This document shows, piece by piece, positions 37,951 to 54,179 of a stretch of DNA of 64,000 nt. Where the stretch lies: positions 1 to 64,000 of IMG/VR virus record IMGVR_UViG_3300008117_000081; one strand, given 5' to 3'. The stretch's first letter is position 1. Each line of letters begins with the position of its first letter. Position numbers and translations under genes: made by a program. The notes below the pieces were generated by a model. That model searched no databases. It was not told the DNA's origin and worked only from the letters and a program-made list of their open reading frames with translations. This DNA comes from a virus.

Positions 37951-37982
37951 TGTAGCCTATAGCGGTATTCGGCGTAGCAGTG

Positions 37983-38465
37983 TCAGCGCCCCCGCTGAAT
38001 TTTACCGGCAATCCACCGCCTAACTCCGTAATAAATTTTAACTGTAAAAATAAAAGGTTTTGCTAGTATAATTTTATTTCTATGGTCAGCGGACAACACT
38101 ATGTCTCTAGCATGCTCTGGATTCTTAAGCATGGCCGCAGTGTATGCTACATTATAAAAAAACAACTTATATAGAATAACCATATATCTAAATAAGAATA
38201 GATTTATTGAGATTCGATTGGCAGTATCCAGCACTCTATATCTAAAACCTTTATCTGGATCAGACTTATATACTACATCAACATTCAATAACTCAAATAA
38301 AGAACTTGAGCCTAGGTCTGCATACCATCTTGCTTCGCTCCACTTATTCTTAATGTCGCCGTTTATGCGGCCTACTCTTTGTCCCCAAAACTCAAAACAT
38401 TTTAATGTAGTTATCATGTGCTTTCTACCCTTATCTCGTAGAGCTAGGTACTCTCTTTGATCCAT
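37983..38465 (-). CDS. Hypothetical protein with hydrophobic middle (160 aa)
   Basis: Start at the ATG after AAAGGACTAGCGTT. A hydrophobic stretch near residues 90-115 (I-N-L-F-L-F-R-Y-M-V-I-L) may be a membrane segment. Basic C-terminus. Not recognised. Confidence 0.6.
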   Translation of the reverse strand: MDQREYLALRDKGRKHMITTLKCFEFWGQRVGRINGDIKNKWSEARWYADLGSSSLFELLNVDVVYKSDPDKGFRYRVLDTANRISINLFLFRYMVILYKLFFYNVAYTAAMLKNPEHARDIVLSADHRNKIILAKPFIFTVKIYYGVRRWIAGKIQRGR

Positions 38466-38715: not shown

Positions 38716-39228
38716 TTAAACTAAGTGCCTAAGATTTTCAGGCACAGATTCCGCGACTATTGAGCTCTTTGCTTTTGAAGTTTTTTCAACCTTTAACTCT
38801 TCTAGTCTGGAATTAAGGGCTTCTTGAACTTCTTGCTCGGAGTCTGTACCTGCAGTTGCTTTAAGTAATTTACGAAGCTCTTTTACCTGTGAATCGCCGT
38901 TACCTACACGAGAAACAGATTTACCTGAACCACTAGAGCTCTGATGCTTTACATTGCCATTCAAGCGCGGATCCTTCTTAATCCAGTTAGAGATTAATCC
39001 GCTGCAATACTTACTATAATCTACGTCGCTAGTCATCTTTCCTGCAAATTCTGTAGAAGAAGTTATTGATCCATCTTTGAGACCAGTTATTAGAATTTCT
39101 CTTACTTTTTTCTTGTGATCTGAGGTGATAACACTTTTGACGTCTTCACCAGGATTAAAGCTCACACCGCTGTTTTCCAACACACTAGTGATTGCCTGAA
39201 ACGTTGCTTCCCGCTGATTTTGGGCCAT
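38716..39228 (-). CDS. Diverged member of the 'IPAHLRHL' paralogue family (170 aa)
   Basis: Ends V-P-E-N-L-R-H-L-V, and matches the proteins at 50935, 52310 and 53340 in order: an N-terminal T-x-x-x-V-L, D-x-x-K-x-[VK]-x-x-I-[LC]-x-[TK]-[GN]-[LF], then Y-x-x-G-L-[IV]-[SN]-N-W-[IL]-[RK]-K and V-[KR]-[EA]-L-[RK]-[KQ]-L-L. Function unknown; possibly nucleic-acid associated by its charge. Confidence 0.65.
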   Translation of the reverse strand: MAQNQREATFQAITSVLENSGVSFNPGEDVKSVITSDHKKKVREILITGLKDGSITSSTEFAGKMTSDVDYSKYCSGLISNWIKKDPRLNGNVKHQSSSGSGKSVSRVGNGDSQVKELRKLLKATAGTDSEQEVQEALNSRLEELKVEKTSKAKSSIVAESVPENLRHLV

Positions 39229-49053: not shown

Positions 49054-49279
49054 AGCCGCTCCTTTCTGCACTTGCAGTTGTTTGTAAGATAACCTTGGTT
49101 TTTGACTCATAGGAGTCGTATCTGTTAATCTGCTTGAAATCACTCGCTACAGAGTTAAAGAATTCCAGCGCATCCTCTAGCTCATAGAAGTCAGGACTCT
49201 CTGCTATAGTTTCGTCGTCTGCTAGCGAGAAGAACACCGTATATAGCGGATACTTCATAGTGTGCAAAACCAGTCTCAT
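49037..49279 (-). CDS. Hypothetical protein (80 aa)
   Basis: Y-P-L-Y-T-V-F-F-S-L then an acidic helix; overlaps both neighbours. GGAGGTGG ribosome site. Not recognised. Confidence 0.6.
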   Translation of the reverse strand: MRLVLHTMKYPLYTVFFSLADDETIAESPDFYELEDALEFFNSVASDFKQINRYDSYESKTKVILQTTASAERSGYGLFV

Positions 49280-49440
49280 GCCACCTCCTCTGCTATACAG
49301 TCGATTAGCTGCATGTTGGCCTCATAGATCTCTGCCTTTAGTTCTGCCACCTCAACACAGCCTGGACCCCACAACTCCCAGTGAACATCTAGTCGCTTCT
49401 CAAGCTCTTCAATCTTCTCAATAAGCCGTTGCTTTTCCAT
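49276..49440 (-). CDS. 'WGPGxxEV' small helical protein, copy 1 (54 aa)
   Basis: Coiled helix then W-G-P-G-C-V-E-V. The gene at 51601 has F-W-G-P-G-S-A-E-V in the same place. A helical hairpin is likely. Motif A upstream. Confidence 0.6.
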   Translation of the reverse strand: MEKQRLIEKIEELEKRLDVHWELWGPGCVEVAELKAEIYEANMQLIDCIAEEVA

Positions 49441-50879: not shown

Positions 50880-50924
50880 GGCGTAGCAGTGTCAAAAAAA
50901 AGGCAGGAGTGTTATGCTCCTGCC
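50880..50924 (-). terminator. Terminator plus GACACTGCTACGCC box
   Basis: Minus strand stem GGCAGGAG/CTCCTGCC followed by eight T, running straight into GACACTGCTACGCC (50880-50894). The same terminator-box arrangement repeats at 51842, 52264 and 53291. Confidence 0.85.
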
Positions 50925-50934
50925 TGCTAGATGA

Positions 50935-51420
50935 CTAGCCTAACAGATGTCTTAGGTGGGCTGGGATAGCCTCGATCTTGATCTCGACCTTTGGCTTAAG
51001 GCTTTCTAGCTGACTAGTGATCTCTGTTTCGATAGCCTGTCTAGCCTCTTGGTCTGTTGTTATTGCCAGTAGCTGGCGAAGGGCTCTGACTGTCTCATTG
51101 CTGGAACCACGGCGGGATCCAGGATTCTTGGCTGTGTAGCTGAAGCTGCCGCCGCCATTGAACTCTGAGTTCTTCCTAACCCAGTTGTTGATTAGGCCGG
51201 TGACATACTTAGCCAACTCTGCTGGCTGAGAGAAATACTTGGTCTTGCCTTCGTCGCTCATCTCTATCTCGCCTTCTAGGAAGCCGCTGATGAGTATCTG
51301 CTTCAGCTCTGCCTTGTCGCTGTCTGTGAGCACGCTGGCTAGAGTCACGTCGCCGTTCAGGACATAGTCTGGCTTGACTTTAAGGACCGCGTTTGTGACT
51401 GCTCTCTTTTGATTTACCAT
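50935..51420 (-). CDS. 'IPAHLRHL' paralogue family member (161 aa)
   Basis: C-terminal block E-A-I-P-A-H-L-R-H-L-L, central E-G-K-T-K-Y-F-S-Q-P-A-E-L and N-N-W-V-R-K, and a linker with N-P-G-S-R-R-G-S-S-N-E-T-V. Strongly similar to 52310 and 53340, distantly to 38716. Mostly helical; no enzyme motif. Own promoter motif and terminator. Confidence 0.75.
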   Translation of the reverse strand: MVNQKRAVTNAVLKVKPDYVLNGDVTLASVLTDSDKAELKQILISGFLEGEIEMSDEGKTKYFSQPAELAKYVTGLINNWVRKNSEFNGGGSFSYTAKNPGSRRGSSNETVRALRQLLAITTDQEARQAIETEITSQLESLKPKVEIKIEAIPAHLRHLLG

Positions 51421-51470
51421 TTTTAACCCCTTAGTTACAGCCGAGGCGCTAGTGCTTCGGCATATGAATA

Positions 51471-51482
51471 AATCGAGTCGGT
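51471..51482 (-). promoter_or_regulatory. Motif A site (GAGTC form) upstream of 50935-51420
   Basis: Minus strand ACCGACTCGATT; ATG at 51420 about 50 bases on. Confidence 0.5.
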
Positions 51483-51494
51483 TTTTTATAAGGT

Positions 51495-51600
51495 GAGGGA
51501 GCTTTGGGTCGCTGAAGCCTGGCGTTTAAAGAGCAGCTCCCTCGGAGCTTCAGCGTGCGGTTGACCTCATCAGCCGCCAAATTATCGCTTGCGCGAACGG
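51495..51600 (-). ncRNA. Structured RNA candidate with interleaved stems (pseudoknot)
   Basis: On the minus strand, GCTGAAGC (51554-51547) pairs with GCTTCAGC (51518-51511), and GAGGGAGCT (51543-51535) pairs with AGCTCCCTC (51503-51495). The two perfect stems of 8 and 9 bp interleave, giving an H-type pseudoknot. A short hairpin CGC-GCAA-GCG with a GNRA loop lies 5' of it near 51581-51590. No reading frame covers it. It sits behind the 51601 gene and before the next motif A site, so it may be a 3' end or a separate RNA. Confidence 0.55.
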
Positions 51601-51759
51601 TCAATTCTCGATCATAAGGTCAAGCAGCTTAAACTTAAGCTCGCTAATCTCGTAGCCGATCATGACTACTTCTGCACTGCCGGGTCCCCAGAACTCTGCA
51701 TAGACCTTTGCCTTATACTCTAGTAGCTCGATAGCCTGAATCAGCTGCAGTCTTTCCAT
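51601..51759 (-). CDS. 'WGPGxxEV' small helical protein, copy 2 (52 aa)
   Basis: L-I-Q-A-I-E-L-L-E, then F-W-G-P-G-S-A-E-V and a helical end; paralogue of 49276-49440. Motif A 31 bases upstream of the ATG. Confidence 0.65.
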   Translation of the reverse strand: MERLQLIQAIELLEYKAKVYAEFWGPGSAEVVMIGYEISELKFKLLDLMIEN

Positions 51760-51789
51760 AAATTCCCCCCTTTTTATCTCATGTTTGTA

Positions 51790-51801
51790 TATCGAGTCTG
51801 T
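51790..51801 (-). promoter_or_regulatory. Motif A site (GAGTC form) upstream of 51601-51759
   Basis: Minus strand ACAGACTCGATA; the GACACTGCTACGCC box lies 40 bases further upstream (51842-51856). Confidence 0.65.
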
Positions 51802-51841
51802 CGAGGAGTGTGCGCGCTCTGTCTGTCAGCCTAGGCCTGCT

Positions 51842-51879
51842 GGCGTAGCAGTGTCAAAAAAGGAGGGCTTTCGCCCTCC
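51842..51879 (-). terminator. Terminator plus box after 51883-52185
   Basis: Stem GGAGGGC/GCCCTCC with GAAA loop, then TTTTTT running into GACACTGCTACGCC. Confidence 0.9.
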
Positions 51880-51882
51880 GGT

Positions 51883-52185
51883 CTAGAAGTTCTCCAGCAA
51901 TCTGGTTGCCTCGCCATAGCTCTCTTCGAAGTCCTCAGGCTCCATAGCCTCTCTCAGCTCTTCAGCTATCTGTCTAAAATGCTCAACCAGCTCAGTCATC
52001 TGACTCTTATCCATCTCACTAAGTATCGACTCTGTCTGCTGGTCATTAAAGCCTTCGCTGGCTGAATAGATCTCATCAATCTCTTCTTCTGATACTGCAG
52101 TCACAAAACTCTTCACCAGGATGTGTGCACTGGGCGCACTCTCAAAACTCTCAAGAACTGCCAACATGTCATTGGTTGTTATCAA
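51883..52185 (-). CDS. Acidic helical protein (100 aa)
   Basis: Glu/Asp-rich helices (E-E-E-I-D-E-I-Y, E-E-L-R-E-A-M-E-P-E-D). Single-gene cassette with its own promoter motif and terminator. Not recognised. Confidence 0.65.
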   Translation of the reverse strand: MITTNDMLAVLESFESAPSAHILVKSFVTAVSEEEIDEIYSASEGFNDQQTESILSEMDKSQMTELVEHFRQIAEELREAMEPEDFEESYGEATRLLENF

Positions 52186-52236
52186 AGCTGACCTCCTAGC
52201 TGCTGAGATGACCTATTCATCTCATTCATGTTTATA

Positions 52237-52248
52237 TATCGAGTCTGT
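52237..52248 (-). promoter_or_regulatory. Motif A site (GAGTC form) upstream of 51883-52185
   Basis: Minus strand ACAGACTCGATA followed by TATAAACATG; box 15 bases upstream (52264-52278). Confidence 0.65.
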
Positions 52249-52263
52249 CTGAGCTGGCTCGCT

Positions 52264-52303
52264 GGCGTAGCAGTGTCAAAAAAGGCGGGACTTTCGTCCC
52301 GCC
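52264..52303 (-). terminator. Terminator plus box after 52310-52801
   Basis: Stem GGCGGGAC/GTCCCGCC with GAAA loop, then TTTTTT into GACACTGCTACGCC. Confidence 0.9.
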
Positions 52304-52309
52304 TACTAG

Positions 52310-52801
52310 CTAGAACTTAATCAGATGTCTTAGGTGGGCTGGGATCGCATCACTATTTATCTCGACCTTTGGCTTAAGGCTTTCTAGCTGACTAGCGATC
52401 TCGGCTTCGATAGCCTGCTTCGCTTCTGAATCGCTAGTGATAGCCAAGAGCTGGCGAAGGGCTCTGACTGTCTCGTTGCTAGAGCCTTTGCGACTGCCAG
52501 GGTTTTTCACCTGATACTTCTGGCCACCATTCAGCTCGGTGGCCTTACGCAGCCAGTTGTTAACAAGGCCAACCACATACTTTCTTAGCTCTGCTGGCTG
52601 AGAGAAATACTTGGTCTTACCCTCGTCACTCATCTCTACCTCGCCACTCATAAAACCCTTGCAGATGATGTCGACTGTCTTCTCTTTATCTGCACTGGTC
52701 ATCATATCTGCTGCAGAGACCGGACCATCAAACTCATAGGCCACTCCGCGATCTGCTAGTACACTAACAATAGCTGCTACAGTTGCTTTACGCTGATTCA
52801 T
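52310..52801 (-). CDS. 'IPAHLRHL' paralogue family member (163 aa)
   Basis: Begins M-N-Q-R-K-A-T-V-A-A-I, same N-terminus as 53340-53831, and ends I-P-A-H-L-R-H-L-I. Same central blocks as the other copies. GGGGGTT ribosome site. Leader contains the inverted repeat GCAAGC/GCTTGC. Confidence 0.75.
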   Translation of the reverse strand: MNQRKATVAAIVSVLADRGVAYEFDGPVSAADMMTSADKEKTVDIICKGFMSGEVEMSDEGKTKYFSQPAELRKYVVGLVNNWLRKATELNGGQKYQVKNPGSRKGSSNETVRALRQLLAITSDSEAKQAIEAEIASQLESLKPKVEINSDAIPAHLRHLIKF

Positions 52802-52856
52802 ATAACCCCCTAGTTGGCAAGCTTTATGCTTGCTTTGTTGTTATTAGATCGAGTCT
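52801..52856 (-). repeat. 56-bp leader repeat, copy 1 (copy 2 at 53831-53886)
   Basis: The stretch from the ATG back to motif A is identical in both copies, including the GCAAGC/GCTTGC hairpin. It shows that gene and leader were duplicated together, or are kept alike by recombination. Confidence 0.85.
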
Positions 52857-52858
52857 GT
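52847..52858 (-). promoter_or_regulatory. Motif A site (GAGTC form) upstream of 52310-52801
   Basis: Minus strand ACAGACTCGATC at the end of the repeated leader. Confidence 0.6.
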
Positions 52859-52975
52859 TAAAGTGCAGTTCATCATTTTAGGTGTCTGAACTGCCAACTG
52901 CCCACCGGATGCTAATAAGCTAGCCCAAGCCAATGTCCATACAGGACTTTTACAACCATCTGGTTGTTGTTTATA
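52859..52975 (-). ncRNA. Possible small RNA with three hairpins
   Basis: About 117 bases between two motif A sites and without a good frame. Minus-strand hairpins: CAACC-AGAT-GGTTG (52953-52966), GTCC-TGTAT-GGAC (52935-52947), and a 7-bp stem GCAGTTC/GAACTGC (52865-52871 with 52888-52894). The upstream motif A would transcribe it. No T-run at its end. Confidence 0.4.
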
Positions 52976-52987
52976 TATCGAGTCTGT
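52976..52987 (-). promoter_or_regulatory. Motif A site (GAGTC form) before the small RNA candidate
   Basis: Minus strand ACAGACTCGATA followed by TATAAAC. Box at 53011-53025, 23 bases upstream. No protein gene follows directly. Confidence 0.6.
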
Positions 52988-53052
52988 CTGAGCTGGCTTG
53001 CTAGCCTGCTGGCGTAGCAGTGTCAATATATAGAGGAGAGGACAGGCAGAGC

Positions 53053-53232
53053 CTACCCTTTCCTCCAGTACTCCAGATACTTCACCACCTCTTCTCGATC
53101 TCCAAAGAACTCTATCGCCCTCTTCTTATAATCCTCTAACTCTGACTGATTCTTAAACACTCTGCCATTCTGATTCCACTCATGACTGACTATCATCTGA
53201 TCAAGAACACTATCATTATAACTCTCTTCCAT
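53053..53232 (-). CDS. Small charged protein (59 aa)
   Basis: Start at the ATG after GGGGGGTTTT; a longer frame starts at 53256. Helical, charged (E-L-E-D-Y-K-K-R-A), ends in Y-W-R-K-G. Not recognised. Confidence 0.6.
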   Translation of the reverse strand: MEESYNDSVLDQMIVSHEWNQNGRVFKNQSELEDYKKRAIEFFGDREEVVKYLEYWRKG

Positions 53233-53263
53233 AAAACCCCCCTTTATTAATCTCATATTAGTA

Positions 53264-53275
53264 TATCGAGTCTGT
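53264..53275 (-). promoter_or_regulatory. Motif A site (GAGTC form) upstream of 53053-53232
   Basis: Minus strand ACAGACTCGATA followed by TACTAATATG; box 15 bases upstream (53291-53305). Confidence 0.65.
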
Positions 53276-53290
53276 CTGAGCTGGCTTGCT

Positions 53291-53332
53291 GGCGTAGCAG
53301 TGTCAAAAAAAAGAGGGGGACTTTCGTCCCCC
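53291..53332 (-). terminator. Terminator plus box after 53340-53831
   Basis: Stem GGGGGAC/GTCCCCC with GAAA loop, then TCTTTTTTTT into GACACTGCTACGCC. Confidence 0.9.
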
Positions 53333-53339
53333 GATTGAC

Positions 53340-53831
53340 CTATCTGTCTAGCAGATGGCGTAGGTGAGCTGGGATGGCGTCGAAGTTTATCTCGACTTTG
53401 GGTTTGATGGTCTCGAGTTGGCTAGCGATCTCGGCTTCAATCGCTCGTCTCGCGTCCTGGTCATCGGTTATCGTCAGCAGTTGCTTAAGAGCTTTAATCG
53501 TCTCGTTTCCAGATCCTGCTCTAGAACCAGGGTTTTTCACCTGATACTTCTGGCCACCGTTTAGTTCTGGCGCCTTACGTAGCCAGTTGTTAACAAGGCC
53601 AACCACATACTTTCTTAGCTCTGCTGGCTGAGTGAAATACTTGGCCTTGCCTTCATCGCTCATCTCGACCTCGCCTTCTAGAAAACCCTTGCAGATCATG
53701 TCTACTGTCTTAGACCTATCATTCTCGGTCATGAGATCACTCGCATTCACAGGACCGTTGAACTCGTAGCTGATGCCTTTGTCAGAGAGAACGAACAGGA
53801 TCGCAGACACAGTTGCTTTACGCTGATTCAT
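53340..53831 (-). CDS. 'IPAHLRHL' paralogue family member (163 aa)
   Basis: Close copy of 52310-52801 from start to end, with scattered substitutions. Same leader. Function unknown. Three close copies within 3 kb suggest dosage need or diversification. Confidence 0.75.
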   Translation of the reverse strand: MNQRKATVSAILFVLSDKGISYEFNGPVNASDLMTENDRSKTVDMICKGFLEGEVEMSDEGKAKYFTQPAELRKYVVGLVNNWLRKAPELNGGQKYQVKNPGSRAGSGNETIKALKQLLTITDDQDARRAIEAEIASQLETIKPKVEINFDAIPAHLRHLLDR

Positions 53832-53886
53832 ATAACCCCCTAGTTGGCAAGCTTTATGCTTGCTTTGTTGTTATTAGATCGAGTCA
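53831..53886 (-). repeat. 56-bp leader repeat, copy 2
   Basis: Identical to 52801-52856. Confidence 0.85.
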
Positions 53887-53888: not shown

Positions 53889-54179
53889 CTAGACCGGCAA
53901 CCCTTGCGCAGGCGCTGCCCGCCACCGGCCTCGTAGACTATATCGAGCCGGTTTAAAATTATAAAACAGTTTTAACAGGTTTAAAAAAATTTAACCGGTT
54001 AGGACCGGGTAACCTCTAAACCATCTAACCTTACTTCGAGCCGGTCAGGTTCTGGTACCCTGCGAACTCTGGCAGAGCACTTTTTCATAAAAATAGGGCC
54101 CACTGGCCTCTGATCCCTAATAGATCAAACACAGAGGTACCGGTACCCTAATTTTTTTATAATATTTTTTTATTATTTT
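53889..54179. other. Non-coding region with repeats and an AT-rich block, possible origin or control region
   Basis: No supportable gene in about 290 bases. It holds two further motif A-like sites (53941-53952 and 54034-54045, both with GAGCCGG), several CCGGTT/AACCGG and GGTACC words, the palindrome GGTACCGGTACC near 54136-54147, a stem CCTCTG/CAGAGG, and ends in an A/T-only block of about 30 bases (54150-54180). It separates the cassette region from the final microprotein array. Confidence 0.45.

Follow-up and report, generated by a model that had tools for sequence, protein, structure and literature searches.

The window analysed here is a stretch of 64,000 nucleotides that forms part of a 97,035-bp record from an uncultured tailed phage, whose tail sheath is nearest to that of Myxococcus phage Mx1 (31%), followed by those of SPO1-like phages. 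Small genes are clustered around the element under study, and several of them carry the promoter-like motif GACTCGATNTA and a strong Shine-Dalgarno sequence. The minus-strand genes around it encode proteins of 52, 100 and 67 aa as well as three paralogues of 161/163 aa (Table 1). GACTCGATNTA occurs in seven copies in the 97-kb record, all on the minus strand and confined to the 2.4-kb cluster at 51469-53885, and the same seven motifs are present in a 166-kb relative. The motif differs from the sigma-70 consensus.

The TGA of the 52-aa gene (51603-51601) lies about 45 nt upstream of the first stem, S1. A paralogue of this gene, 42% identical, was found at 49276-49440, and no homologues were found outside the same phage species. 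From the 3' end of the element it is about 15 nt to the promoter-like motif of the 161-aa gene and about 75 nt to the start codon of this gene.

Four boundaries between 50900 and 53340 (53332, 52304, 51879 and 50925) carry intrinsic terminators of 7-9 bp with a U-tract, each then followed by the 15-mer TGACACTGCTACGCC, and at a fifth boundary (53025) TGACACTGCTACGCC comes after a weaker structure. Both the intrinsic terminator and TGACACTGCTACGCC are missing where the 52-aa gene gives way to the 161-aa gene, and the element is found there instead. No intrinsic terminator was detected at 51495-51600; the last arm, S2', is followed by ACCUUAUAAAAAACC and by no U-tract. Elsewhere in the cluster, at 52845-52990 (minus strand), a promoter-like motif (52984-52974) precedes some 120 nt that contain several hairpins, and no convincing gene appears before the next such motif; this stretch may be another non-coding transcript.

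Table 1. Coordinates of the features at the locus and of the conserved sequences nearby
Feature	Position	Strand	Basis or remark
S1 5' arm CGCUGAAGC	51547..51555	(-)	repeat search
L1 loop UCC, 3 nt; first U able to pair G-U with 51519	51544..51546	(-)	sequence
S2 5' arm GAGGGAGCU	51535..51543	(-)	repeat search
L2 loop, 16 nt, GCUCUUUAAACGCCAG	51519..51534	(-)	sequence
S1 3' arm (S1') GCUUCAGCG	51510..51518	(-)	repeat search
L3 loop ACCCAA, 6 nt	51504..51509	(-)	sequence
S2 3' arm (S2') AGCUCCCUC	51495..51503	(-)	repeat search
GNRA hairpin UCGC-GCAA-GCGA, 4 bp	51585..51596	(-)	sequence; also in predicted folds
Second hairpin GCGG-c-UGAU-gag-GUCA-a-CCGC, between GNRA hairpin and pseudoknot	51557..51577	(-)	predicted
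Competing local hairpin AGCUCC-GAG-GGAGCU, 6 bp, 3-nt loop, -7.4 kcal/mol	51535..51549	(-)	
Upstream 52-aa ORF	51601..51759	(-)	coding codon usage
Promoter-like motif GACTCGATTTA of the next unit	51469..51479	(-)	one of seven copies of GACTCGATNTA
Downstream 161-aa gene	50935..51420	(-)	paralogues 52310-52801, 53340-53831, 38716-39228
15-mer TGACACTGCTACGCC	50880-50894, 51842-51856, 52264-52278, 53011-53025, 53291-53305, 37971-37985	(-)	exact
92-nt element in relatives	L018 2304-2392, L008 3643-3731, L009 3803-3888		
92-nt element in more relatives (L011, L013, L015, L017, L024, L026, L027, L028, L046, L048, others)			

Geometry, strand and folding of the interleaved pairs

Using a repeat search, we found two perfect complementary pairs of 9 bp each that interleave (a-b-a'-b') within a span of 61 nt (51495-51555). 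On the plus strand the pairs are GAGGGAGCT/AGCTCCCTC (51495-51503/51535-51543) and CGCTGAAGC/GCTTCAGCG (51510-51518/51547-51555). An earlier note on this DNA had described interleaved perfect pairs of 8 and 9 bases within 60 bases; the pairs and their interleaving are confirmed, and the lengths and the span are corrected here. GGAGCTT is directly repeated in the same stretch (51498 and 51544), and AGCTCC lies between the two copies.

The RNA would be read from the minus strand, since the neighbouring genes, the promoter-like motifs and the GNRA loop are all found there. The adjacent GNRA-loop hairpin that had been noted earlier is real on this strand, and on the opposite strand the loop becomes TTGC. 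Moreover, the plus-strand reading of the pseudoknot leaves a final loop of 3 nt for a 9-bp stem, a geometry ill suited to an H-type fold. On the minus strand the arms have the topology of an H-type pseudoknot with loops of 3, 16 and 6 nt, the sufficiency of these lengths being judged from general knowledge. Together with the GNRA hairpin and the second hairpin, the pseudoknot would make up a compact fold of about 105 nt. The competing local hairpin shares bases with arms of both S1 and S2.

The earlier note had taken the stretch to be free of reading frames. A 51-codon TTG ORF (51449-51604, minus strand) does run across the element; its codon-usage score of -0.29 is under the first percentile of coding stretches (-0.06), so that it does not look coding, and we discarded a coding reading on these grounds.

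In the 64-kb window this is the sole 9/9 interleaved pair with a span of up to 80 nt, where second-order Markov shuffles lead one to expect 0.017 cases per window. It is also the top H-type pseudoknot by energy on either strand of the whole window. Under a simple additive model, which uses Turner stacking and one fixed pseudoknot penalty of 9.8 kcal/mol and has no loop-length terms, the pseudoknot reaches about -31 kcal/mol, whereas the optimal nested structure of the core has -20. The largest pseudoknot gain elsewhere in the window is -3.9, and that across about 310 kb of related phage loci is -8.3. The two upstream hairpins add -14.5, which brings the whole gap to about -45 (a summed estimate and not a computed ensemble) versus -34.8 for the nested optimum. 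The nested folding of the gap is ordinary, with z of -0.9 on the minus and -1.6 on the plus strand, and was counted against the reading that we prefer.

A chance origin of the interleaving is unlikely. The same had been claimed before, and the expectation of 0.017 per window bears it out, tempered by one of the 60 shuffled windows, which equalled the pseudoknot gain of the element. As about 2% of windows in a many-window scan give such a case, rarity supports a function without proving it. The topology, the loop lengths, the energy and the GNRA loop all suit the minus, that is the coding, strand, and to call the stretch a pseudoknot RNA candidate was fair.

Distribution among relatives and conserved neighbours

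Apart from this record, only three IMG/VR contigs (63, 23 and 166 kb) contain the element. Its copies are 100% identical across 380 bp in all four contigs. With 99.4-100% identity in the flanking kilobases as well, these contigs look like a single species. Since the four known copies are invariant, they offer no compensatory changes in S1 or S2 to compare. Searching IMG/VR with exact and loop-tolerant stem patterns (both S1 arms plus one S2 arm) returned nothing beyond the three identical contigs. The same stem pattern, run over 84,980 bacterial genomes, gave a single hit, in a Rhizobium MAG in which the S2 partner is absent, and this match was attributed to chance. Blastn against phages and plasmids gave no match to the element. 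In Rfam, the single match passing the gathering threshold was a tRNA elsewhere, and nothing covered 51495-51600 at a relaxed threshold.

The 161-aa protein belongs to a phage family of about 160 aa with a conserved NW[LI][RK]K core and several copies per genome. Many other contigs encode this family, those aligned being 31-49% identical. The protein is predicted to be all-helical with a confident model (pLDDT 90); it had no significant match in Pfam, PHROG or PDB, and a search with the structure model found one homologue from an uncultured phage. All three clustered paralogues have a hairpin just 5' of the Shine-Dalgarno sequence (51440-51461, 52816-52834 and 53846-53864), with a conserved stem and a sequence that is divergent in the first copy.

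Distant contigs with genes of the 161-aa family, four of which were checked by DNA, are missing the element, which is therefore not a conserved part of the module. No comparable pseudoknot was found upstream of 161-aa homologues in about 310 kb. A pseudoknot at 5263 of contig L012, also located before a 161-aa homologue, was set aside, its arms forming a long nested stem as well.

The 15-mer TGACACTGCTACGCC was found as an exact match in all 11 records tested, three of which are one species, with one to six copies each. All copies have the same strand within each record, and the reversed control gave zero. The 15-mer lies mostly after a terminator or hairpin and before a promoter-like motif. 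A conserved non-coding element of 92 nt is located upstream of a gene of the 161-aa family, at 53999-54085 (minus strand) in the window, and some 16 contigs besides the present phage species contain it. It was also found in sequences that were not in the model, namely L026 (E 4e-10), L023 (6e-5) and L022 (1e-3). Within the window, the model of this element (R1) matched only 53999-54085 and, weakly, 54092-54135, with no match at 51495-51600. We obtained no Rfam match for the 92-nt element and no RNAalifold consensus fold from a 14-sequence alignment; in a smaller alignment, a GAGU/ACUC pairing between loops is seen repeatedly. It may act either as RNA or as DNA. The 15-mer and the 92-nt element are better conserved than the pseudoknot. 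The latter is a modest candidate, an orphan of a single species, and the module with the 15-mer and the 92-nt element is the more promising subject.

Possible roles of the element

The complementary arms, the position, the strand context, the lack of a terminator match and the non-coding character of the stretch are directly established. Our preferred reading, which we hold tentatively, is that of a strongly folded RNA element in the 3'-UTR of the 52-aa transcript or between the two cistrons. Transcription of the RNA, formation of the knot and its protecting or separating effect on messages are inferred. Three roles had been proposed in the earlier note, and that of a 3' end, or an intercistronic one, fits the position best, since the element comes right after the 52-aa gene at a boundary without terminator and 15-mer; a riboswitch-like leader fits poorly. 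As no U-tract follows, the element is not an ordinary intrinsic terminator. A role as riboswitch or leader for the 161-aa gene seems rather unlikely, and is weakened by the promoter-like motif of this gene (51479-51469), which comes after the element in the 3' direction, so that only read-through RNA would carry the element.

Under the preferred reading, transcription would begin at the promoter-like motif near 51794 and read the 52-aa gene. The nascent RNA would fold the GNRA hairpin, the second hairpin and the local hairpin first and, as S1' and S2' emerge, would refold so that both 9-bp stems form in an H-type pseudoknot. The knot would most likely block 3'-to-5' exonucleases, mark the boundary of two units, or both. 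The 52-aa message would thereby be protected, and the 161-aa gene would be expressed mainly from its own promoter. A narrower version, to which we give little credence, is that of a phage-specific structured RNA which refolds during transcription, from the local hairpin through S1 to the pseudoknot, and thereby terminates or protects a short transcript of early type without a U-tract. The element would then be a pseudoknotted alternative to intrinsic terminators where other boundaries use hairpins and the 15-mer.

Several other explanations have to be weighed. The arms may stem partly from local repetition and their interleaving may have no function, which we regard as possible and yet on the unlikely side. 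The GGAGCTT repeat with AGCTCC between its copies makes added complementarity cheap, one of the 60 shuffled windows equals the element, and the element was seen in one phage species only. However, it is the sole 9/9 case in 64 kb, it beats everything in about 310 kb of related loci, and it lies in a non-coding gap, one of only a few, at which a boundary between transcripts is to be expected. An independent, trans-acting small RNA, either processed from the 52-aa transcript or transcribed from a promoter that went unrecognised, is unlikely. The compact, non-coding fold of about 105 nt with its GNRA hairpin, second hairpin and pseudoknot would suit such an RNA, but there is no promoter-like match directly upstream and no terminator after it, nor is there an Rfam match or conservation in relatives. 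For the independent RNA suggested in the earlier note, no dedicated promoter was recognised.

By analogy with T4 gene 32, a protein might bind the element on read-through transcripts and so control the 52-aa/161-aa pair at the level of translation or RNA. There is a phage precedent, since gp32 of T4 and RB69 binds its own mRNA at a pseudoknot in the leader (PMC535899), and the 161-aa paralogues likewise have 5'-UTR hairpins. Nevertheless, we consider such an operator distinctly improbable: transcripts from the promoter-like motif between the element and the 161-aa gene would lack the element, and the 161-aa protein has no family or PDB match pointing to RNA binding. Least probable, in our view very unlikely, is an element acting at the DNA level, as a protein-binding site or as cruciform inverted repeats near the promoter-like motif at 51475. 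The repeats end about 15 bp upstream of this motif and are present equally on both strands, but interleaved arms are unusual as an operator layout and no such repeats precede the other copies of the promoter motif.

Two further candidates were rejected. For a stimulator of -1 frameshifting or read-through, the stop codon lies 45 nt upstream and no X XXY YYZ heptamer was seen by eye before S1. A hammerhead, suggested by CUGAUGA at 51573-51567, has neither a GAAA core nor an Rfam match.

Comparison with known systems

Like the intrinsic terminators of the same array, the element lies between consecutive transcription units and has GC-rich stems. In contrast to them, it has no simple hairpin with a U-tract, its arms are interleaved and no 15-mer follows. 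In bacterial mRNAs, stabilising stem structures of the REP-like kind exist between cistrons and in 3'-UTRs. The element resembles these in being a strong fold between two same-strand genes without a U-tract, and differs from them in that it would be a pseudoknot rather than a hairpin and has a single copy in the genome.

The host-takeover module of the SPO1 type is built of numerous small genes that have promoter motifs and strong ribosome sites (PMC6873191). The likeness of the present cluster to it is one of layout alone, seen from the arrangement of the genes. With the gene 32 operator of T4 and RB69, the element has in common that two stems interleave in the H-type manner and that the phage RNA concerned is intercistronic. 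The gene 32 knot, of about 28 nt, opens the leader at its 5' end, and UUAAA repeats and the ribosome site of the controlled gene come after it (PMC535899), whereas the element has about 61 nt and a 16-nt interhelix loop and is located after the upstream gene and before the next promoter-like motif. This position argues against an operator of the gene 32 type and does not support such a membership. If the knot forms, it would represent a pseudoknot at a transcript boundary of a DNA phage, where simple hairpins are the rule.
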